Part shown: in pieces, positions 350-8,338 of the stretch
Layout: every line of letters begins with the position of its first letter
Numbering within the stretch: position 1 is the stretch's first letter
Assembly: GCA_938041615.1 (NCBI GenBank)
Contig: CALISV010000084.1
Coordinates: 1 to 8,338, forward strand
DNA: 8,338 bases
From: an uncultured Campylobacter sp.
Lineage (GTDB): Bacteria; Campylobacterota; Campylobacteria; Campylobacterales; Campylobacteraceae
Reading direction: 5' to 3'
The notes under the pieces: model-generated
Told to the model about the DNA's origin: nothing
What the model saw: the letters and a program-made list of their open reading frames with translations, nothing else
Databases searched by the model: none
Position numbers and translations under genes: made by a program

Positions 350-1681
350 CTATTTGTCAAAAACTCTTTTAAAAATCCCATCCACGTGCCTGGCGTAATA
401 CGCATAATCAAAGCACTCTTTTATCTCGGCTTCGCCTAGGCTTGCGCGTAGCTCCTCGTCGGCGAGCAAATTTTGCAAAAACAGACTCTCGCCGTTTTCG
501 TTTATCACTTTTTTGCCCTCTTGCAGATCCGCCCAGACCTTCATCGCGTTGCGCTGTACGATCTTATATGCGTCCTCGCGTGAAATTCCGCGCTGCGGAA
601 GCTGTAAAAGCACGCGCTGAGAAAAGACGAGCCCGCCGGTCAAATTTAGATTTTTCATCATATTTTCCGGATAAACTACCAAATTTGCGATCAAATTCGT
701 AATGCGCGCGAGCATGAAATCGGCCGTGATGAAGGCGTCTGGTAGGATAAATCGCTCGACGGAGCTGTGGCTGATGTCGCGTTCGTGCCAGAGCGCGACG
801 TTTTCGAGCGCAGGCGTCACGTATGAGCGCAGCATCCTGCAAAGGCCGGTGATGTTTTCGCTAAGTACGGGATTACGCTTGTGCGGCATCGCGCTAGAGC
901 CCTTTTGGCCGGGACTGAAGTACTCCTCGGCCTCGTAAACTTCCGTCCTTTGGAAGTGGCGCACGGCGACGGCGATCTTTTCGCAGGTGGCGGCTAGCAC
1001 GGCGATCGCGCTGATAACGTGGGCGTAGCGATCGCGCTGGATGACTTGATTTGACGCGGGAGCAGGTTTTAGACCAAGCTCGGCGCAGGTTAACTCCTCA
1101 AACTCGAGCGGTGCGTGAGCGAAGTTTCCCATCGCGCCACTTAGTTTGCCGTAGGCGGCGACCTCTTTGGCGTCTTGCAGTAGCTTTAGCGCGCGTGCGA
1201 CCTCGTCGTACCAGACCGCAAGCACGAGTCCGAAGGTGATCGGTTCGCCGTGGATACCGTGGCTGCGGCCGACCATCATCGTGTTTTTGTGCTCCTGCGC
1301 TCTGGTTTTGATCGCGCTCATTAGGCCTTTTACATCCTCTATGATGAGCTCCATGCTGCTTTTGATCTGAAGCGCGACGGCGGTGTCGATGCAGTCGCTA
1401 CTAGTCATGCCGTAGTGTACGAAGCGGCTCTCATCGCCCAGACTCTCGCTCACGCTCGTTAGAAACGCGATCACGTCGTGCTTGGTTGTCTTTTCGATCT
1501 CGTCGATGCGCGCTACGTCAAATTTTGCGTTTTTGCAAATTTTCTCGCAGTCCGCATCGCTGATAAAACCTAGCTTATTCCACGCTTTGACCGCAGCCTT
1601 TTCGACCTCTAGCCACGCACTGTATTTTGCCTGCGTATTCCACTTCTGCGCCATTTGCTCGCGCGAATATCTCTCTACCAT
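350..1681 (-). CDS. purB: Adenylosuccinate lyase PurB
   Basis: Adenylosuccinate lyase is a cytosolic enzyme that removes fumarate twice in purine synthesis: from SAICAR to give AICAR, and from adenylosuccinate to give AMP. The 443-residue length is normal for the short bacterial form. The fumarase/aspartase superfamily signature SSAMPHKRNP lies at residues 262-271, on the flexible catalytic loop. GMTSSD at 91-96 and GRSHGIHGEP at 138-147 form substrate-binding regions. His68, His89, His141 and Glu275 fall at the same numbers as the active-site residues I recall from the B. subtilis enzyme. The ATG start is preceded by an AAAGAG-like ribosome site, and a TATAAT box lies about 50 bases upstream. 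The gene diverges from the RluA-family gene and is followed by a stem-loop. It appears intact. Confidence 0.97.
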   Translation of the reverse strand: MVERYSREQMAQKWNTQAKYSAWLEVEKAAVKAWNKLGFISDADCEKICKNAKFDVARIDEIEKTTKHDVIAFLTSVSESLGDESRFVHYGMTSSDCIDTAVALQIKSSMELIIEDVKGLMSAIKTRAQEHKNTMMVGRSHGIHGEPITFGLVLAVWYDEVARALKLLQDAKEVAAYGKLSGAMGNFAHAPLEFEELTCAELGLKPAPASNQVIQRDRYAHVISAIAVLAATCEKIAVAVRHFQRTEVYEAEEYFSPGQKGSSAMPHKRNPVLSENITGLCRMLRSYVTPALENVALWHERDISHSSVERFILPDAFITADFMLARITNLIANLVVYPENMMKNLNLTGGLVFSQRVLLQLPQRGISREDAYKIVQRNAMKVWADLQEGKKVINENGESLFLQNLLADEELRASLGEAEIKECFDYAYYARHVDGIFKRVFDK

Positions 1682-1807: not shown

Positions 1808-2716
1808 TTGCCTTATATTCATAAATTTATCGCGCGCGCCGAAGGGCAAAAAGCGTATGAAATTTTACTGCAAAACGGCTATAAAATGCGCGAAGCCCAG
1901 CGCCTCATCGACAAAGGTCGGCTTACCTGCGACGGCGCGGTCGTCAGCGAGAAAAACGCTTTGCTAAGCGGTGAAATTTGCTTGATAGAGTATGAGACGA
2001 ATCCACGAGGTCTAAAGCCGATTTTTGAGTGCGATAAATTTGCGGTTTTCGATAAACCCAGCGGCGTGCTCAGTCACCCAAACGGCAGGCACTGCGAATA
2101 CTCGCTAAATGACGAAATTTGGTCGCTCTACGGCCGCGAGGCCTCAGTTGCACATCGCTTGGACTGTGAAACTAGCGGACTCATCGTCATTGGCAAAGAC
2201 AAAAATGCGGTCGTAAATTTGAAAAAACTTTTTGAAAATCGGCAGGTTTATAAAAGCTACATCGCGCTCGCGCACGGAAAGATAAGCGAAAATTTGCGTA
2301 TCGAAGCAAATATGGATCTAGCAAACGACTACGACGACGTGAAAATGCGAATGCGAATTTGCGAGGATGGCAAAAGCGCAGTTACGGAGATTTTGCCGAT
2401 AGAGTATTTTGCCGATATCGATGCGACGCTGGTTCGAGCAGTACCGCTCACGGGCAGACAACATCAAATTCGCTTGCATTTGTTCCACGTGGAACATAAG
2501 ATTTTAGGCGAACCGCTTTATGGCCTTTCTCGACCGCAAATCGAGAAAATTTTAGATAAAGAGATGAGCGAAACAGAGCGGATTTTGACAACCGGCGCGC
2601 CGAGATTGCTACTGCATTCTGATGAAATTTGCTTTAAATTTGACGGTGTAGAATACAAAATAAAATCCAAATTTGATGCGAAAGATGAATTTTATAAACT
2701 TGTAAAGCACGGATAG
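1808..2716 (+). CDS. RluA-family RNA pseudouridine synthase with S4 domain
   Basis: This enzyme isomerises chosen uridines in RNA, probably 23S rRNA, to pseudouridine. The target cannot be assigned from sequence alone. Residues about 10-60 look like an S4 RNA-binding domain. The catalytic domain follows, with DKPSG at 82-86, the catalytic motif HRLD at 116-119 (Asp119 is the nucleophile) and TGRQHQIRLHL at 215-225. The length of 302 residues is normal for the RluC/RluD group. The start is TTG at 1808: an in-frame TGA lies just upstream at 1802-1804, a purine-rich AAAGAGTGAAAG precedes it, and the next Met (residue 27) would cut the S4 domain. A parS-like palindrome lies inside the gene and encodes residues 225-230. 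A specific name such as rluD would be a guess. Confidence 0.92.
   Translation: MPYIHKFIARAEGQKAYEILLQNGYKMREAQRLIDKGRLTCDGAVVSEKNALLSGEICLIEYETNPRGLKPIFECDKFAVFDKPSGVLSHPNGRHCEYSLNDEIWSLYGREASVAHRLDCETSGLIVIGKDKNAVVNLKKLFENRQVYKSYIALAHGKISENLRIEANMDLANDYDDVKMRMRICEDGKSAVTEILPIEYFADIDATLVRAVPLTGRQHQIRLHLFHVEHKILGEPLYGLSRPQIEKILDKEMSETERILTTGAPRLLLHSDEICFKFDGVEYKIKSKFDAKDEFYKLVKHG
2481..2496. promoter_or_regulatory. parS-like ParB-binding site (first copy)
   Basis: TGTTCCACGTGGAACA is a perfect 16-bp palindrome that fits the widely conserved bacterial parS consensus TGTTNCACGTGNAACA. It lies within the pseudouridine synthase gene, where it is read in frame across LFHVEH. An identical copy lies at 5347-5362. 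parS sites are loaded by ParB for chromosome segregation and cluster near the replication origin. No parA or parB is visible in this window. Confidence 0.82.
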
Positions 2717-3085
2717 ATTTTGAGCCGATTTGCTAGGCCTTTCTTTATTTACATTAGGAAGCTTTATAAAATATGACAGCACAAAAACGGTAAATTTTAG
2801 ATATGTAACATCCGCTAGCAATAGCGTCAAGCGTAAAATAATACTGCAAAATTTAGTTACGATTACAGTGCGATGTATTCGCATAAAAAGCGTTTTTACT
2901 TTGGCTATATAGTAATGCAAGAGATAAGCTAACGTAAATTTTGTTAGCAGACAATGTCTTGTAAATAGTATTTTAAAGTTAAAATTTTGTTAGTAAATTT
3001 AACCCTGTTAGTTAGCCCGTGCACTAAATTTAGACGGTTGAGAACCGGTTTTAGCACCGGCAAATTAGATTAAGCAGAAATTTAT

Positions 3086-3093
3086 GGGGGGGG
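3086..3093 (+). repeat. Eight-G homopolymer tract
   Basis: A run of eight G bases sits immediately before the -10-like TAGAAT and 37 bases upstream of the ATG of the membrane-protein gene. Poly-G tracts of about this length are the usual slippage sites for phase variation in Campylobacter. Here the tract is intergenic, so any effect would be on promoter spacing or leader translation. Function is inferred. Confidence 0.6.
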
Positions 3094-3099
3094 TAGAAT
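3094..3099 (+). promoter_or_regulatory. Possible -10 box for the 120-residue membrane protein
   Basis: TAGAAT directly follows the G8 tract and resembles the GGGTAAAAT box ahead of rsmA. A start point near 3106 would leave a leader of about 25 bases with a strong ribosome site AAGGAG at 3117-3122, eight bases before the ATG. This is weak evidence taken alone. Confidence 0.35.
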
Positions 3100-3130
3100 T
3101 ACGCAAAATTTTATTTAAGGAGTATTTTTC

Positions 3131-3493
3131 ATGAGTTTTATTAAAAAAATTTTCGGCGGACTTAGCGCGTCTTATTACCTGCGACATCTATTTTTCGGCG
3201 CTATTTTTACTACTTTATATGTCATACTTTTTTATAGTATGGGAGATAAACGAGTTCTTACATATATTGTCCTTGCAGGAAGCACCTTTTTATATCCATA
3301 TTCTCGCTTTGTTTATGAAAGTATCGTAGGCTTCATATTTGGCAAAAACGTCTTTTTTGTAAATGCTATTTTTTTACTCGTCGCTAAATTTATGACGATG
3401 CTTATTTGTTGGAGCTTTGCAGTTTTTATTGCGCTGGTAGGAATTTTGCATCTATATTTTTATCACACGAAAAATAAAACTTTTGACGAGTAA
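3131..3493 (+). CDS. Small multi-pass membrane protein, function unknown
   Basis: I do not recognise this 120-residue protein. It is strongly hydrophobic with a basic start (MSFIKKIF). Likely membrane segments are about residues 19-37, 43-58 and 75-110, the last long enough to cross twice, with a shorter hydrophobic stretch near 64-71. The tail HTKNKTFDE is polar. The very low charge and high Phe/Tyr content suggest an inner-membrane protein. The ATG has an excellent ribosome site (AAGGAG, 8-base spacing). The gene stands alone: the pseudouridine synthase ends 414 bases upstream and the next features face it on the minus strand. A G8 tract just upstream could make expression variable. It could be an accessory gene or a lineage-specific envelope protein; nothing in the sequence decides this. 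Confidence 0.8.
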   Translation: MSFIKKIFGGLSASYYLRHLFFGAIFTTLYVILFYSMGDKRVLTYIVLAGSTFLYPYSRFVYESIVGFIFGKNVFFVNAIFLLVAKFMTMLICWSFAVFIALVGILHLYFYHTKNKTFDE

Positions 3494-3538
3494 AAATCAA
3501 CCTGCGCGTAGGCGGCTCGGCAAATTTATAGCCAGAGG

Positions 3539-3922
3539 CTAAAACCCGAATGCCGTCTCGCCACTGCCGATTTTTATTACTTTGCCGCCTTACATCATCA
3601 CACCTAAACCGTGTTCCATATCCCACGAACAGTTAAACTGAAAGCTGATCTTTGCGGTATTGCCTATGATATAATATTTTGCAGCTCCAATAGTTCGCTA
3701 AGTTGCTGCACCTCACTGACGTTAGGCATTAAATCGTCTTTTGTTTCGTCAGGGTAGTTGCAAATTTCTTGCATTTTTGGATATTTTTTAAAATTTCGGC
3801 CATTAAGTTTTTATCTTTTATCTCAGTTTCTAGGCAGATTTTTAGGATTTTTTGAAAATTTTCTTATCAATATAGCAAAAATCATAGAGCAAGAATGCTA
3901 TATCATCGGTCGTGTTTGTCAT
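3539..3922 (-). pseudogene. Decayed DUF6985-like gene (WDxEHGLG motif)
   Basis: Read on the minus strand, pieces of one protein appear in successive frames. A start-like segment [20 protein letters not shown] begins at 3922. A shift at an A-run (3848-3853) leads to ILKICLETEIKDKN. A second shift near 3785-3795 leads to KYPKMQEICNYPDETKDDLM and, continuing, EVQQLSELLEL. A third near 3680-3690 leads to KYYIIGNTAKISFQ, then FNCSWDMEHGLGV (3599-3637). An in-frame TAA at 3590-3592 interrupts the end, after which GGKVIKIGSGETAF reads on to a TAG at 3541-3539. The WDxEHGLGV core followed by a KVxxIGxxxTAF segment resembles the DUF6985 family, whose role I do not know. At least three frameshifts and one nonsense codon rule out a working product. 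The 5' end overlaps the 34-residue ORF by 20 bases, so the original start is uncertain. Confidence 0.75.
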
Positions 3923-4007
3923 AAAAAGCCGTCTTTATGATTAGTCCGAGCCCTAAAAAAACCACTATACAGACGAAAACTATCTGGGATATATCAAGTA
4001 GCGTCAT
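3903..4007 (-). CDS. 34-residue single-span membrane peptide coupled to rlmN
   Basis: This short gene encodes [13 protein letters not shown]... with one hydrophobic span at about residues 8-28 and a charged tail ending YDKHDR. Its ATG (4007-4005) overlaps the rlmN stop in an ATGA arrangement, so it is probably translated by coupling after rlmN. The next gene upstream overlaps rlmN in the same manner, which supports this as a real operon member. I recall a small hydrophobic protein annotated beside rlmN in C. jejuni, which would make this its counterpart, but I cannot check this here. The function is unknown. The reading is strengthened by the clean single-span topology with a short polar end on each side. 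Confidence 0.65.
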
Positions 4008-5095
4008 TTTGCCGTCTTGGCTAGCGTTTTGCCATTTGTTTGATTGTCGCGCTCTTTTAGCTGTCCGCATGCCGCGCTGATATCTAGCCCCTTGCTCTGC
4101 CTGATGGTGCAGGTCACGCCGTGATCGCGCAGATACGTCTGAAATGCCTCCATATCGGCTGTGTTTGGACGTCCGTATTCGCTACCATCGTGTGGATTAA
4201 AGTAGATCAAATTTACTTTTGCTTTGATGCCGTGCAGCAGCGAAACGAGCTTTTTAGCATCTTTTATGCCGTCGTTCATGTCTTTTATGACGAGATACTC
4301 AAACATCACTCGCTTGCGCATATCGATCGGAAAGCCCCTCACGGCCTCCATAACGGACTCGATTTTGTAGGCGTTATTTATAGGCATCAATTTGCTGCGA
4401 AGCTCGTTAGTAACGGCGTGCAAAGATATCGCTAACAGCACGCCCAGATCCATCTCTCCGAGCTTTTTTATCTGGCTACCTAGCCCGCTCGTACTAACGG
4501 TCTGGCGGCGCGGCGCGATAGCTAACCCGTCGTTTTCTTTTAAAATTTTTATAGCTTTACTAACGTTTTCTAGGTTGTCAAGCGGCTCGCCCATGCCCAT
4601 ATATACGACGTTTACGCGGCGCTCGTAGGGGATTTTATTTTCTCTTTTTATCCACAAAATTTGCCCCACTATTTCGCCTGGCGTTAGGTTTCTCGTTAGT
4701 CCGCTCTTGCCGGTTAGACAAAACGAACAGCCCATGCGGCAGCCTACCTGCGAGCTAACACAGATGGTATAACGAGCATGGCGCGCTACCTCGCCATTTT
4801 CGTCGCTGAGCTCCTCTTTCATCGGTAGCAACACGCTTTCGATGCGCAGCCCGTCTTTGAGCTCGAAAAGATACTTTATAGAGCCGTCGGCGCTCTGCTC
4901 AAATTTGACGCACTTTAGCGGATCAAGGTAAAACTCCTGTGCCAAATTTGCACGCAAATCCTTTGGCAAATTTAGCATTTCATCAAAACTAGTTGCGTTT
5001 TTTTTGTATAGCCATTCGAAAATTTGCTTCGCGCGAAACGGCGGCGAGAGCTGCTCTTTCAGCTCGTCTAATGTAAAATCAAGCAAATTTTTCAA
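4004..5095 (-). CDS. rlmN: Dual-specificity RNA methyltransferase RlmN (23S A2503 / tRNA A37)
   Basis: RlmN is a radical-SAM enzyme that methylates C2 of adenosine 2503 in 23S rRNA and, in E. coli, A37 of some tRNAs, tuning the peptidyl-transferase region. The 363-residue protein has the iron-sulfur motif CxxxCxxC at Cys119, Cys123 and Cys126. The preceding CVSSQVGC supplies Cys112 and the C-terminal SAACGQL supplies Cys343; these match the two mechanistic cysteines of the E. coli enzyme (Cys118 and Cys355). GMGEP at 167-171 is the SAM-binding strand motif. The start is TTG at 5095-5093, giving MKNLLDF, overlapping the upstream stop as TTGA and preceded by AAGGAA eight bases away. An in-frame ATG start is absent nearby. 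The stop overlaps the start of the small membrane peptide gene. The gene is intact. Confidence 0.95.
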
Positions 5096-5757
5096 ATGAT
5101 TTCCTTTTGTTTTAGGTATTTTTCGAGCTCTTTTTTTGCTTGCTCGTGGTTTTTGATAAAGTCTGCGTGTGCGTTTTTGTCACAGAAATTCGTTGCTACA
5201 AATATACCGTAAGCCGGGATTTGAAATTTTTGCGCGACTTTGAGGACGGCAAAAAATTCCATATTTTCTAAAAAATATCCGCGCGCAAAAAGCTCGTGAG
5301 CTAAATTTTGATCTATTGTGATGAAATTTGAGGAATTTACTTTGCATGTTCCACGTGGAACAATAGAAGCGATTCCACTCTCTATCGGCAAATAACTTTT
5401 GTTTTCTAGGCTTGAAATTTCGATATTTGCTGCGACTGAGCTCTCGTAAATTTTAAAAATTTCCCCCTCTTTATAAAGTCCCGCCGAGCCTATAAAAATG
5501 ATTTCTCTCGGTAGTGCGTTTAAAATTTTATCTGGGTTTTGGGAGGATTTCGCGCTTTGCAAAATGGGCGAATCTATCAAATTTAGTCTTTCATCAAACT
5601 GTCCATTGGCCATCAAATTTTGCTCGTATCTACCGCAGCTATCAACCATAGCTCGCTTTTGCAAAAGCGCCGTCAAATTTATGCTCATATCTACTAGCCC
5701 CACGCCCATAGGTAGCGCGAAAGGAAATATCTCGTTTCGCCCCGCTGAAATAATCAC
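5092..5757 (-). CDS. Purine-nucleoside phosphorylase / MTA-nucleosidase-like protein
   Basis: This 221-residue protein belongs to the PNP/UDP phosphorylase fold, whose members cleave or phosphorolyse nucleosides. Supporting segments are [15 protein letters not shown] (18-32), IGSAGLY (89-95) and [11 protein letters not shown] (165-175). Met166-Glu167 of the last matches the ribose-binding Met-Glu pair of MTA/SAH nucleosidases. Where nucleosidases carry a catalytic Asp, it reads VATNFCD (187-193), with an Asn as in phosphorylases acting on 6-oxopurines. Substrate is therefore open: futalosine, inosine or guanosine types are all possible, and a name such as mqnB would be a guess. The start is GTG at 5757 with AAAGGG upstream; an in-frame TAG lies a little further up. 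The gene follows hisF by 37 bases and overlaps rlmN by four. It contains the second parS-like palindrome, read as VPRGT. Confidence 0.82.
5347..5362. promoter_or_regulatory. parS-like ParB-binding site (second copy)
   Basis: A second perfect TGTTCCACGTGGAACA, identical in all 16 bases to the copy at 2481-2496 and 2866 bp from it. It lies inside the nucleosidase-like gene, where the minus-strand frame reads it as VPRGT (residues 133-137). Two identical 16-bp palindromes in 8.3 kb in unrelated genes and different frames are not expected by chance, which supports a DNA-level role. Confidence 0.85.
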
Positions 5758-5794: not shown

Positions 5795-6550
5795 TCACAG
5801 CCTAACCTCGATGCCTTGCTCCCGCAAATATGTCTTAAGCGCCTTTATCTCAATCTCTCTAAAATGAAAGATAGAGGCCGCCAAGCATGCGTCCGCGCCC
5901 GCTAAAAATGCGTCCTTAAAGTGCTCCATTTTTCCCGCGCCGCCGCTTGCGATGACGGGGATATCAAGCGCGCTAAAAATCCGCGTTAAATTTAGCTCAA
6001 AGCCATTTTTGACGCCGTCGCAGTCCATCGACGTGAGTAAAATTTCGCCCGCACCGCGCTCCTGCGCCTCTTTCGCCCACGCCAGAGCGTCCCTGCCGGT
6101 ATCTAGCCTACCGCCGTTTATAAACACGCTATAACCCTCGCCCGTTTTCTTTGCGTCGATCGCGACTACGACGCACTGCGAGCCGAATTTATTCGCTGCT
6201 TCGTCTATTAAATTTGGATTTTTTATCGCGGCCGAGTTGAGGCTTATTTTGTCGCAGCCAACGTTTAGTAGGCGCGAGATATCATCGATCGTGCGTATGC
6301 CGCCGCCAACGGTCAGCGGGATAAAAAGCTCGCGCGCTACCCGCTCCACGACATCCACGATCGTATCGCGCTCAAGGTGCGACGCCGTGATATCAAGGAA
6401 GCACAGCTCGTCCGCACCCTCCTCGTTGTAGCGTTTGGCTATCTCGACCGGATCGCCCGCATCCACGAGACCTACGAAATTTACGCCCTTTACCACGCGT
6501 CCGTCTTTGACGTCTAGGCACGGGATTATGCGTTTTGCAAAATGATTCAT
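5795..6550 (-). CDS. hisF: Imidazole glycerol phosphate synthase cyclase subunit HisF
   Basis: HisF is the cyclase half of the HisF-HisH enzyme. It uses ammonia delivered from HisH to turn PRFAR into imidazole glycerol phosphate (histidine pathway) and AICAR, which re-enters purine synthesis. The 251-residue (beta-alpha)8 barrel has the typical start [16 protein letters not shown]. Asp13 and Asp132 correspond to the catalytic Asp11 and Asp130 of the Thermotoga enzyme. VGGGIR (81-86) and ASGGAG (201-206) are the two phosphate-binding loops. ATG is chosen at 6550 with a purine-rich AAGAAGAG upstream. No hisH or other his gene lies in this window, so the pathway genes must be elsewhere. hisF heads the minus-strand operon and diverges from rsmA; a 12-bp-arm inverted repeat lies in its leader. 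Confidence 0.97.
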
Positions 6551-6653: not shown

Positions 6654-7517
6654 ATGGAAAATATCAAAGCAAAAAAATGCTTCGGACAAAATTTTTTACA
6701 CGACGAAGCGACGCTAAACAAAATCATCCAAGCGATTCCCAAAGATACGCAAAATATCGTTGAAATTGGGCCTGGCTTAGGTGATTTGACATTTAGAATT
6801 TTGCGGATTTGCGGCGTAACTAGCTATGAGATAGATACCGAGCTTTTTGCGCTGCTGCAGAAAAAATTCGCAAACGAAATTCAAAACGGACGATTGAAAC
6901 TTTTTTGCAAAGACGCGCTGGATCAGTGGAGCGAAGACGGCTTAAACGATGAGCCGTATTTTTTAGCGGCAAACCTGCCCTACTACGTTGCTACGAAGAT
7001 GATCCTAAATGCGATCGAAGACGAGAAATGTTGCGGCCTGGTCGTGATGATACAAAAGGAAGTCGCGCTCAAATTTAGCGCGAAAAGCGGCGATAGAGAT
7101 TTTAGCTCTTTGGCGATTTTAGCCTCGCTTCAAGGCGGCTGTGAACTGCTTTTTGACGTGGATGCGAGCTGCTTTAACCCGCCGCCGAAGGTGACTTCCT
7201 CGGTTATAAAACTGCAAAAAAGTAAAAATTTAATAGGCGAAACGGGTATATTTGAGAGTAAATTTGAATACGAAAAATTTAAAACTTACCTCAAAATCGC
7301 CTTTAGCGCGCCTAGAAAAACGCTGATGAAAAATTTGAGCTCAAGCTACGAAAAGCCCGAAGTCGAGCGAATTTTTAGCATGTTAAATTTGAGCGCAAAC
7401 ATCCGTCCGCACGAGCTAAATGTCGATCTTTATCTAGAAGTATTTAAAAATTTAAAGGAAGATAATGAACGACAAAAACGAAGAAAAAGCGGTAGTTTCT
7501 CAGGGCAAGAGCAATAA
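6654..7517 (+). CDS. rsmA: 16S rRNA dimethyladenosine transferase RsmA (KsgA)
   Basis: RsmA uses SAM to dimethylate the two adjacent adenosines in the 3' terminal loop of 16S rRNA (A1518 and A1519 in E. coli), a late checkpoint in small-subunit assembly. Its loss classically gives kasugamycin resistance. The 287-residue protein begins with the family's KKCFGQNFL. VEIGPGLGDLT (36-46) is the SAM-binding loop, NLPYY (107-111) the catalytic motif IV, and CFNPPPKV the conserved substrate-side loop. ATG is chosen with AGGAAAG immediately upstream. The last 17 or so residues (after NLKED) are polar, KR-rich, and encoded in the 53-base overlap with rnj, so they look like an extension forced by the overlap. 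It is probably co-transcribed with rnj. Confidence 0.96.
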   Translation: MENIKAKKCFGQNFLHDEATLNKIIQAIPKDTQNIVEIGPGLGDLTFRILRICGVTSYEIDTELFALLQKKFANEIQNGRLKLFCKDALDQWSEDGLNDEPYFLAANLPYYVATKMILNAIEDEKCCGLVVMIQKEVALKFSAKSGDRDFSSLAILASLQGGCELLFDVDASCFNPPPKVTSSVIKLQKSKNLIGETGIFESKFEYEKFKTYLKIAFSAPRKTLMKNLSSSYEKPEVERIFSMLNLSANIRPHELNVDLYLEVFKNLKEDNERQKRRKSGSFSGQEQ

Positions 7518-8338
7518 AAAGCGCAGATTTCGCCCGAGAAATAAAAATAAACAAGAAAATTTAGACCAAAACGCACAAAACGGCGAGCAAAAAGCTAGTC
7601 AAAGCGTGATAGATAATTTCTTTTTAGAGCCTTTTGACGGCGGCGAACAGCACGCGCAAAACGGCGAACAACCTAACGCTAACAAACAAAACGGTAAAAG
7701 AAATCGTAGTAAAAATGGCAAACAAAACTCTCAAAACAGCGCGCAAAACGAAAATAAAAACGCTAACAAACAAGCTGCTAACACAGAAAATCAAACGGGC
7801 GAAGCTAAGCCGAAAAAACAGCGAAAGCCGAAGAAAAATTTACCCGCTAAGCTAAACGGTAACGAGCAGTGGCAGCAAGATATCGCCGCATCTATGGAGG
7901 CAAACAAGGCTGTCCACGAACTGCGTCTGGAGCCGATGAAATACCTAAACTCAACCGATCACAGGATCCGCGTTACGCCTCTTGGCGGGCTGGGCGAGAT
8001 CGGCGGAAATATGACGATATTTGAGACCGATACGAGCGCGATCATTGTCGATATCGGCATGAGTTTTCCTAGTGAGAGCATGCACGGCGTGGATATCCTG
8101 ATCCCTGACTTTGACTATGTGCGCAAGATAAAAGACAAGATAAAAGGCGTCGTCATCACGCACGCCCACGAGGATCACATCGGCGCGGTGCCCTACTTTT
8201 ATAAAGAATTTAAATTTCCGATTTACGCCACGCCTTTGCCGCTTGGTATGATAAATAACAAATTTGAAGAGCACGGACTAAAACAGGAGCGTTCGCTTTT
8301 CCGTTCGGTCGAAAAGCGCAAGCCGTATCTGATAGGGG
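7465..8338 (+). CDS. rnj: Ribonuclease J, 5' part (runs off the window)
   Basis: RNase J is a metallo-beta-lactamase/beta-CASP ribonuclease with 5'-3' exonuclease and endonuclease activity, the main mRNA decay and RNA maturation enzyme in Campylobacter and Helicobacter. The 291 residues visible have no stop. Residues 1 to about 165 are a polar, Asn/Gln/Lys/Arg-rich, probably disordered leader, with AQNGEQ occurring at both 37-42 and 64-69. The catalytic domain starts near residue 169 (RVTPLGGLGEIGGNM) and shows the zinc motif HAHEDH at 233-238 (His233, His235, Asp237, His238). The ATG at 7465 has AAAGGAAG four bases upstream and lies 53 bases inside rsmA. A later start would lose the ribosome site. 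A long leader of this kind is known in H. pylori RNase J. The beta-CASP and C-terminal parts lie beyond the window. Confidence 0.95.
   Translation, partial: MNDKNEEKAVVSQGKSNKKRRFRPRNKNKQENLDQNAQNGEQKASQSVIDNFFLEPFDGGEQHAQNGEQPNANKQNGKRNRSKNGKQNSQNSAQNENKNANKQAANTENQTGEAKPKKQRKPKKNLPAKLNGNEQWQQDIAASMEANKAVHELRLEPMKYLNSTDHRIRVTPLGGLGEIGGNMTIFETDTSAIIVDIGMSFPSESMHGVDILIPDFDYVRKIKDKIKGVVITHAHEDHIGAVPYFYKEFKFPIYATPLPLGMINNKFEEHGLKQERSLFRSVEKRKPYLIG

Follow-up and report, generated by a model that had tools for sequence, protein, structure and literature searches.

The window analysed here, an 8,338-nt stretch from an uncultured Campylobacter sp. (contig CALISV010000084.1 of assembly GCA_938041615.1), contains two identical copies of the perfect 16-bp palindrome TGTTCCACGTGGAACA, at positions 2481-2496 and 5347-5362. 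These are very likely the two chromosomal parS sites of this Campylobacter, at which ParB is predicted to load. The first copy lies within a gene for an RluA-family pseudouridine synthase (rluA-like), and the second within a gene for a phosphorylase/nucleosidase-family protein (phosphorylase-like). This interpretation is based on the exact fit of both sites to the parS consensus, the lack of other such sites genome-wide at up to one mismatch, the proximity to dnaA, the presence of parA-parB, and the conservation of the DNA word itself. Copy number, distance to dnaA, and parAB were taken from relatives and not from the window's own genome.

Both copies match the parS consensus TGTTNCACGTGNAACA with no mismatches, and the window contains no further match to TGTTCCACGTGGAACA at up to three mismatches. 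Such a pair is improbable by chance: the mean expectation is 0.02, and none of 200 dinucleotide shuffles of the window had two or more copies. An earlier sequence-only reading of this DNA had reported the two palindromes inside genes, their fit to parS, and their improbability; the coordinates, open reading frames (ORFs), consensus fit, and statistics all bear it out. The two genes read the palindrome in different frames, as TTG TTC CAC GTG GAA CAT (LFHVEH) in the rluA-like gene and as GTT CCA CGT GGA ACA (VPRGT) in the phosphorylase-like gene, and the 20-bp flanks of the two sites, judged by eye, show no mutual resemblance. Because of the differing frames and dissimilar flanks, the sites do not look like a duplicated segment, and we rejected the idea that one arose as a copy of the other. 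An inverted-repeat search of the window gave three further weak pairs, none at either site; searches of the window for RNA families and tRNAs gave none, and positions 2300-2720 had no plasmid match that would point to a mobile copy. The 16-mer also occurs in at least 120 stretches of viral contigs; this tells us no more than that the word is frequent in other DNA, and it has no weight in the argument.

Number and position of the sites in related genomes

We counted sites in the 48 genomes of the genus of C. showae CC57C, in 153 genomes of the family, and in 398 genomes sampled from the order, using the reversed pattern as a control. C. showae CC57C (G001, L001) is the closest relative by the RluA-like protein in a scan of genome contigs (94%, with a Campylobacter metagenome-assembled genome, MAG, at 75%), and the best protein matches of the window, where the sources name them, are to Campylobacter, mostly uncultured. 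Exact consensus matches were found in 10 of the 48 genus genomes, versus one with the control. The five closest genomes (G001, G037, G040, G041, and G042) have exactly two exact sites each, all of them TGTTCCACGTGGAACA, 2.6-3.7 kb apart and in the same two genes as in the window, and no one-mismatch site anywhere in the genome. Matches with two mismatches total 3 in these five genomes versus 20 with the control; for G042 taken alone, the numbers are 2 and 1. The many evenly spread copies that the sequence-only reading had named as incompatible with parS were not observed.

In all five closest genomes, the distance between the sites and dnaA is 14.5-21.9 kb, and the dnaA-dnaN region is described as the probable origin of replication of C. 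jejuni (PMC6052347). The location near the origin, a trait of chromosomal parS that the sequence-only reading had ascribed to this gene set in C. jejuni, is therefore found in the relatives; the window is placed there by synteny, and its own genome presumably has the same layout.

Within the family, exact matches occur in 37 of 153 genomes (control, 1 of 153), with two sites in 23 genomes, one site in 14, and three in none. Both sites are on one contig in 22 of the 23 two-site genomes, separated by 1.6-7.3 kb, and on two contigs in G147. The sites in the relatives are thus few and clustered, as is typical for chromosomal parS. In the order sample, exact matches were found in 199 of 398 genomes, with up to four sites per genome, versus 17 genomes for the reversed pattern (counted from rows). 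Unusual layouts in this sample (G167, G288, and G305) include two exact sites only ~230-290 bp apart, not kilobases, in some genomes, and three or four exact sites in a few.

Sites in the host genes and their turnover

For comparison of the host genes, genomes were chosen by hand. The set consists of 34 of the 37 exact-site genomes (all except G135, G139, and G147) and representatives of the rest; most of the similar one-mismatch genus genomes were left out. The rluA alignment has 87 rows (85 from family genomes, one from the window, and one from a second G002 contig), the phosphorylase alignment has 87 rows (86 genomes and the window), and both genes are present in 85 rows. Mismatches at the rluA site are distributed bimodally, with 0-2 in 69 of the 87 rows, 5-10 in 18 rows, and none at 3-4, while 79 of the 87 phosphorylase rows have a parS-like site with 0-3 mismatches; these row counts are not independent, because the rows were chosen by the analyst and are related. 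At the level of loci, 35 of 42 have a match of at most two mismatches inside, or no more than 30 bp from, each of the two genes, a number that shows where the sites are and not how often they occur, since most loci were picked for an exact or one-mismatch site. The gene order purB, rluA-like, rlmN, phosphorylase-like, hisF, ksgA is largely common to the loci, and identity of the phosphorylase-like protein to that of the window goes down to 33%. In the MAG G002 (L002, L199), two contigs each hold an rluA-like copy; the copies differ, as do their parS variants, a sign that the assembly may be mixed. G128-G130 (L094-L096) are divergent, with another gene order and an exact site at or within ~150 bp of the 3' end of the rluA match, beside the gene and not inside it; in G129, an extra copy with one mismatch lies 22 bp away from an exact site.

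A third parS-like site (0-2 mismatches) was found in rlmN of 14 genomes, always at the same position early in the gene. Where it is present, the usual x-F-R-A-K-Q peptide becomes M/L-F-R/H-V-K-Q (MFRVKQ, MFHVKQ, or LFRVKQ); the window has PFRAKQ and no third site. The rlmN site is present in 10 of the 19 rows that lack the rluA or the phosphorylase site versus 4 of the 66 rows that have both (Fisher P 1.8e-5), an association that comes mostly from one clade and is not tree-corrected, and for which G058 was scored as lacking the site (its matches are elsewhere in the frame). All three sites occur together in G088, G108, and G113, and with weaker matches in G115. In G085, G093, and G094, exact sites are absent, and two one-mismatch sites, in the phosphorylase-like gene and rlmN, are ~350 bp apart. 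Three genomes with an ordinary ParB (G124, L160; G127, L161; G090, L162) have no site in either host gene and keep the rlmN site; G124 and G127 also have the one-mismatch TGTTTCATGTGAAACA nearby, outside the host genes, and the rlmN site of G090, with two mismatches, is its sole site. This distribution looks like a turnover that would hold the number of sites near two. Against this reading, the three genes of G068, G081, G112, and G119 together contain only a single eroded site in each genome, and sites with one mismatch are absent from these genomes.

The number of sites also bears on a rather unlikely alternative, namely that the palindromes are parS but one is sufficient, which would make the other redundant or a secondary place of loading. 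Any single one of the four origin-proximal parS sites of Pseudomonas aeruginosa is described as enough for partitioning (PMC4368675), and by this analogy the two sites here may be partly redundant; in addition, 14 of the 37 exact-match family genomes have a single exact site, and eroded second sites are common. However, two is both the maximum and the commonest exact count in the family, and the enrichment of rlmN sites after loss of another site, although largely confined to one clade, also speaks against this alternative.

Partition proteins and conservation as DNA

We identified ParB (TIGR00180) in 150 of the 153 family genomes, and a ParA-type ATPase gene adjoins parB in all five closest genomes, so the relatives encode both cognate proteins expected for a chromosomal parS. 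The ParB of G041 matches the solved chain 4umk_A (E 1.6e-66), which we take to be the H. pylori ParB protein. The KSR motif of ParB is kept in all 50 aligned rows. We also considered that ParB has been re-tuned for eroded cores, and rejected it, as KSR and the surrounding helix do not separate by core class in these 50 rows; QIANT versus QITNT differs in some genomes with TG cores and not in others. Palindromic operators are common, and the palindrome might be the operator of another regulator that recognizes a CACGTG core. This is very improbable given that there are only two copies, near the origin and deep within coding sequence, with an exact parS fit and an almost universal ParB.

The synonymous constraint was estimated in windows of five codons, by comparing codon identity with what the codon usage of the same genome in these two genes would predict. 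The most constrained window of the rluA-like gene, HLFHV (codons 225-229 of the open frame; rank 1 of 299), overlaps the site, and that of the phosphorylase-like gene, IVPRG (rank 1 of 177), is on the site. Rows bearing the rluA site keep FH(V/M) with 3 exceptions in 69, while the 18 rows without it have 16 different aligned peptides (those of G058, G067, and G068 may be misaligned). In G065, no phosphorylase match was detected at E 1e-8, and a perfect TGTTTCACGTGAAACA is nevertheless present at the place expected for the gene, within the 45 bp that separate rlmN from hisF; in G067, a perfect site is located 2 bp beyond the rluA stop codon. The DNA and not the peptide thus appears to be kept at the sites, and this conservation beyond coding need, a further trait of chromosomal parS, is supported by sequence comparison. 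Loss of the palindrome without the peptide, which the sequence-only reading had named as evidence against parS, is not seen in the five closest genomes, and full loss goes with peptide divergence; in the more distant relatives G043, G047, and G002b, a single-base erosion is found under an unchanged LFHVEH (with GTA).

That the palindromes simply result from codon preference acting on two conserved peptides, and have no role at the DNA level, is scarcely credible: both sites are coding, and site-bearing relatives do conserve the F-H and V-x-x-x-T residues, but the two frames differ, the codon-frequency products at the sites, given the peptide and the codon usage of the window, are low (0.0033 for rluA and 0.00008 for the phosphorylase-like gene, pnp), constraint peaks at both sites, peptides diverge after loss of the rluA site, and G065 keeps the DNA without a detectable gene.

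Besides the dependence on relatives, several observations weigh against the parS interpretation. Exact matches are absent from 116 of the 153 family genomes, and many of the fetched genomes have eroded cores (CATGTG, CATATG), which helps explain why a search with the exact consensus misses parS in so many genomes that encode ParB. Six of the 85 rows (G128-G130, G124, G127, and G090) have neither an rluA nor a phosphorylase site. The raw table of cores looks matched between the two sites (CG/CG in 28, TG-type/TG-type in 16, and TA/TA in 3 of 85 rows); changes at the two sites are uncoordinated beyond the tree. Co-change was rejected both for the core (6 shared branches versus 4.4 expected, P 0.24, in a branch-length-weighted same-branch test) and for positions 5/12 (2 shared changes versus 2.3 expected, P 0.72). 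First rank in the rluA-like gene is reached only by the overlapping window HLFHV, with LFHVE and FHVEH at ranks 3 and 44 of 299. In three close genomes with both genes on one contig, parB is 359-459 kb from dnaA, therefore parAB and parS are not neighbours. Finally, the recognition helix of ParB does not follow the core variants. On balance, the copy number, place, and conservation of the sites in relatives support the parS reading proposed from the sequence, and the comparison of the two positions that had been suggested along with it places them in the same genes in the closest genomes.

The features of the window are listed in Table 1. Homologues of the phosphorylase-like gene, where named by the sources, are purine-nucleoside phosphorylases. 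The truncated metallo-beta-lactamase-fold gene is the one called rnj in the sequence-only reading. A small ORF at 3131-3493 had no Pfam or NCBIfam match and was matched in 3 of the 42 loci (L074, L076, and L085); a run of eight G at 3086-3093 is located 37 bp ahead of its start. G tracts are known to be phase-variable in Campylobacter.

Table 1. Candidate parS sites and genes in the 8,338-nt window
Feature	Position	Strand	Evidence or context
parS-1 (candidate), TGTTCCACGTGGAACA	2481..2496	none	within the rluA-like gene, codons L-F-H-V-E-H
parS-2 (candidate), identical palindrome	5347..5362	none	within the minus-strand PNP_UDP_1-family gene, codons V-P-R-G-T
Host gene 1, RluA-family pseudouridine synthase	1808..2716	+	PF00849, E 1.1e-29; TIGR00005 below cut-off
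Host gene 2, phosphorylase/nucleosidase-family protein	5092..5757	-	PF01048 (PNP_UDP_1), E 6.7e-07
rlmN, between the sites	4004..5095	-	TIGR00048 above cut-off
purB-like, flanks the pair, synteny marker	350..1681	-	PF00206 and PF10397
hisF-like, flanks the pair, synteny marker	5795..6550	-	PF00977, E 3.6e-85
ksgA-like, synteny marker	6654..7517	+	PF00398, E 5.8e-42
Metallo-beta-lactamase-fold gene, truncated at window end	7465..8337	+	PF00753, E 1.4e-12

Predicted mechanism and comparison with known systems

In ParABS systems in general, ParB loads at parS, slides, and is moved by ParA (PMC9178275). ParB probably binds at both sites described here; it would load there and slide along the flanking DNA, and ParA would pull the ParB-bound copies apart, with the origin region predicted to segregate first. 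Two sites so near each other may act as one centromere and SMC-loading zone. As the sites sit in codons, the centromere would dictate short peptides in these lineages, namely FHV[E/K]H in the RluA-like protein and V[P/S]R[G/E]T in the phosphorylase-like protein, and sites inside genes would share their DNA with transcription.

A broader picture, which we hold tentatively and at slightly less than even chances, is that Campylobacteraceae have a centromere of about two sites, embedded in codons of origin-proximal housekeeping genes, and that this centromere, not the enzyme, sets the local peptide. The sites would be re-homed among the rluA-like gene, the phosphorylase-like gene, rlmN, or the gap where a gene is missing, with the count staying near two, and many lineages, among them some that lack any exact parS, would use CATGTG or CATATG with an unchanged ParB recognition helix. 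The element itself is of a known kind, a chromosomal parS; what appears to be added is the age of the pair, its embedding in genes, and its apparent re-homing. The C. jejuni cell cycle has been called poorly understood (PMC6052347), and a literature search by titles, openings of abstracts, and selected passages found no report of parS in Campylobacter. The pair thus offers a candidate centromere address for this genus, as well as a natural system for studying how a DNA landmark constrains its host proteins, how the sites of a centromere relocate from gene to gene, and what holds their number at about two.

One of the closest known systems is that of H. pylori. The sequence TGTTCCACGTGAAACA used as parS in a study of H. 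pylori ParB (PMC11229316) differs from the site in the window at one of the 16 bases, this species is cited as having two putative parS sites (PMC9178275), and its ParB is homologous to the ParB of the close relative G041. The window differs in having the fully symmetric CC..GG form, in two identical copies. At least five parS sites are described in Caulobacter crescentus (PMC5815017), and ten in P. aeruginosa, four of them origin-proximal (PMC4368675), as compared to two here, both in genes. The Noc-binding site (NBS), TATTTCCCGGGAAATA, is a related palindrome bound by a ParB paralogue (PMC7383237); the CACGTG core in the window fits parS and not the NBS.

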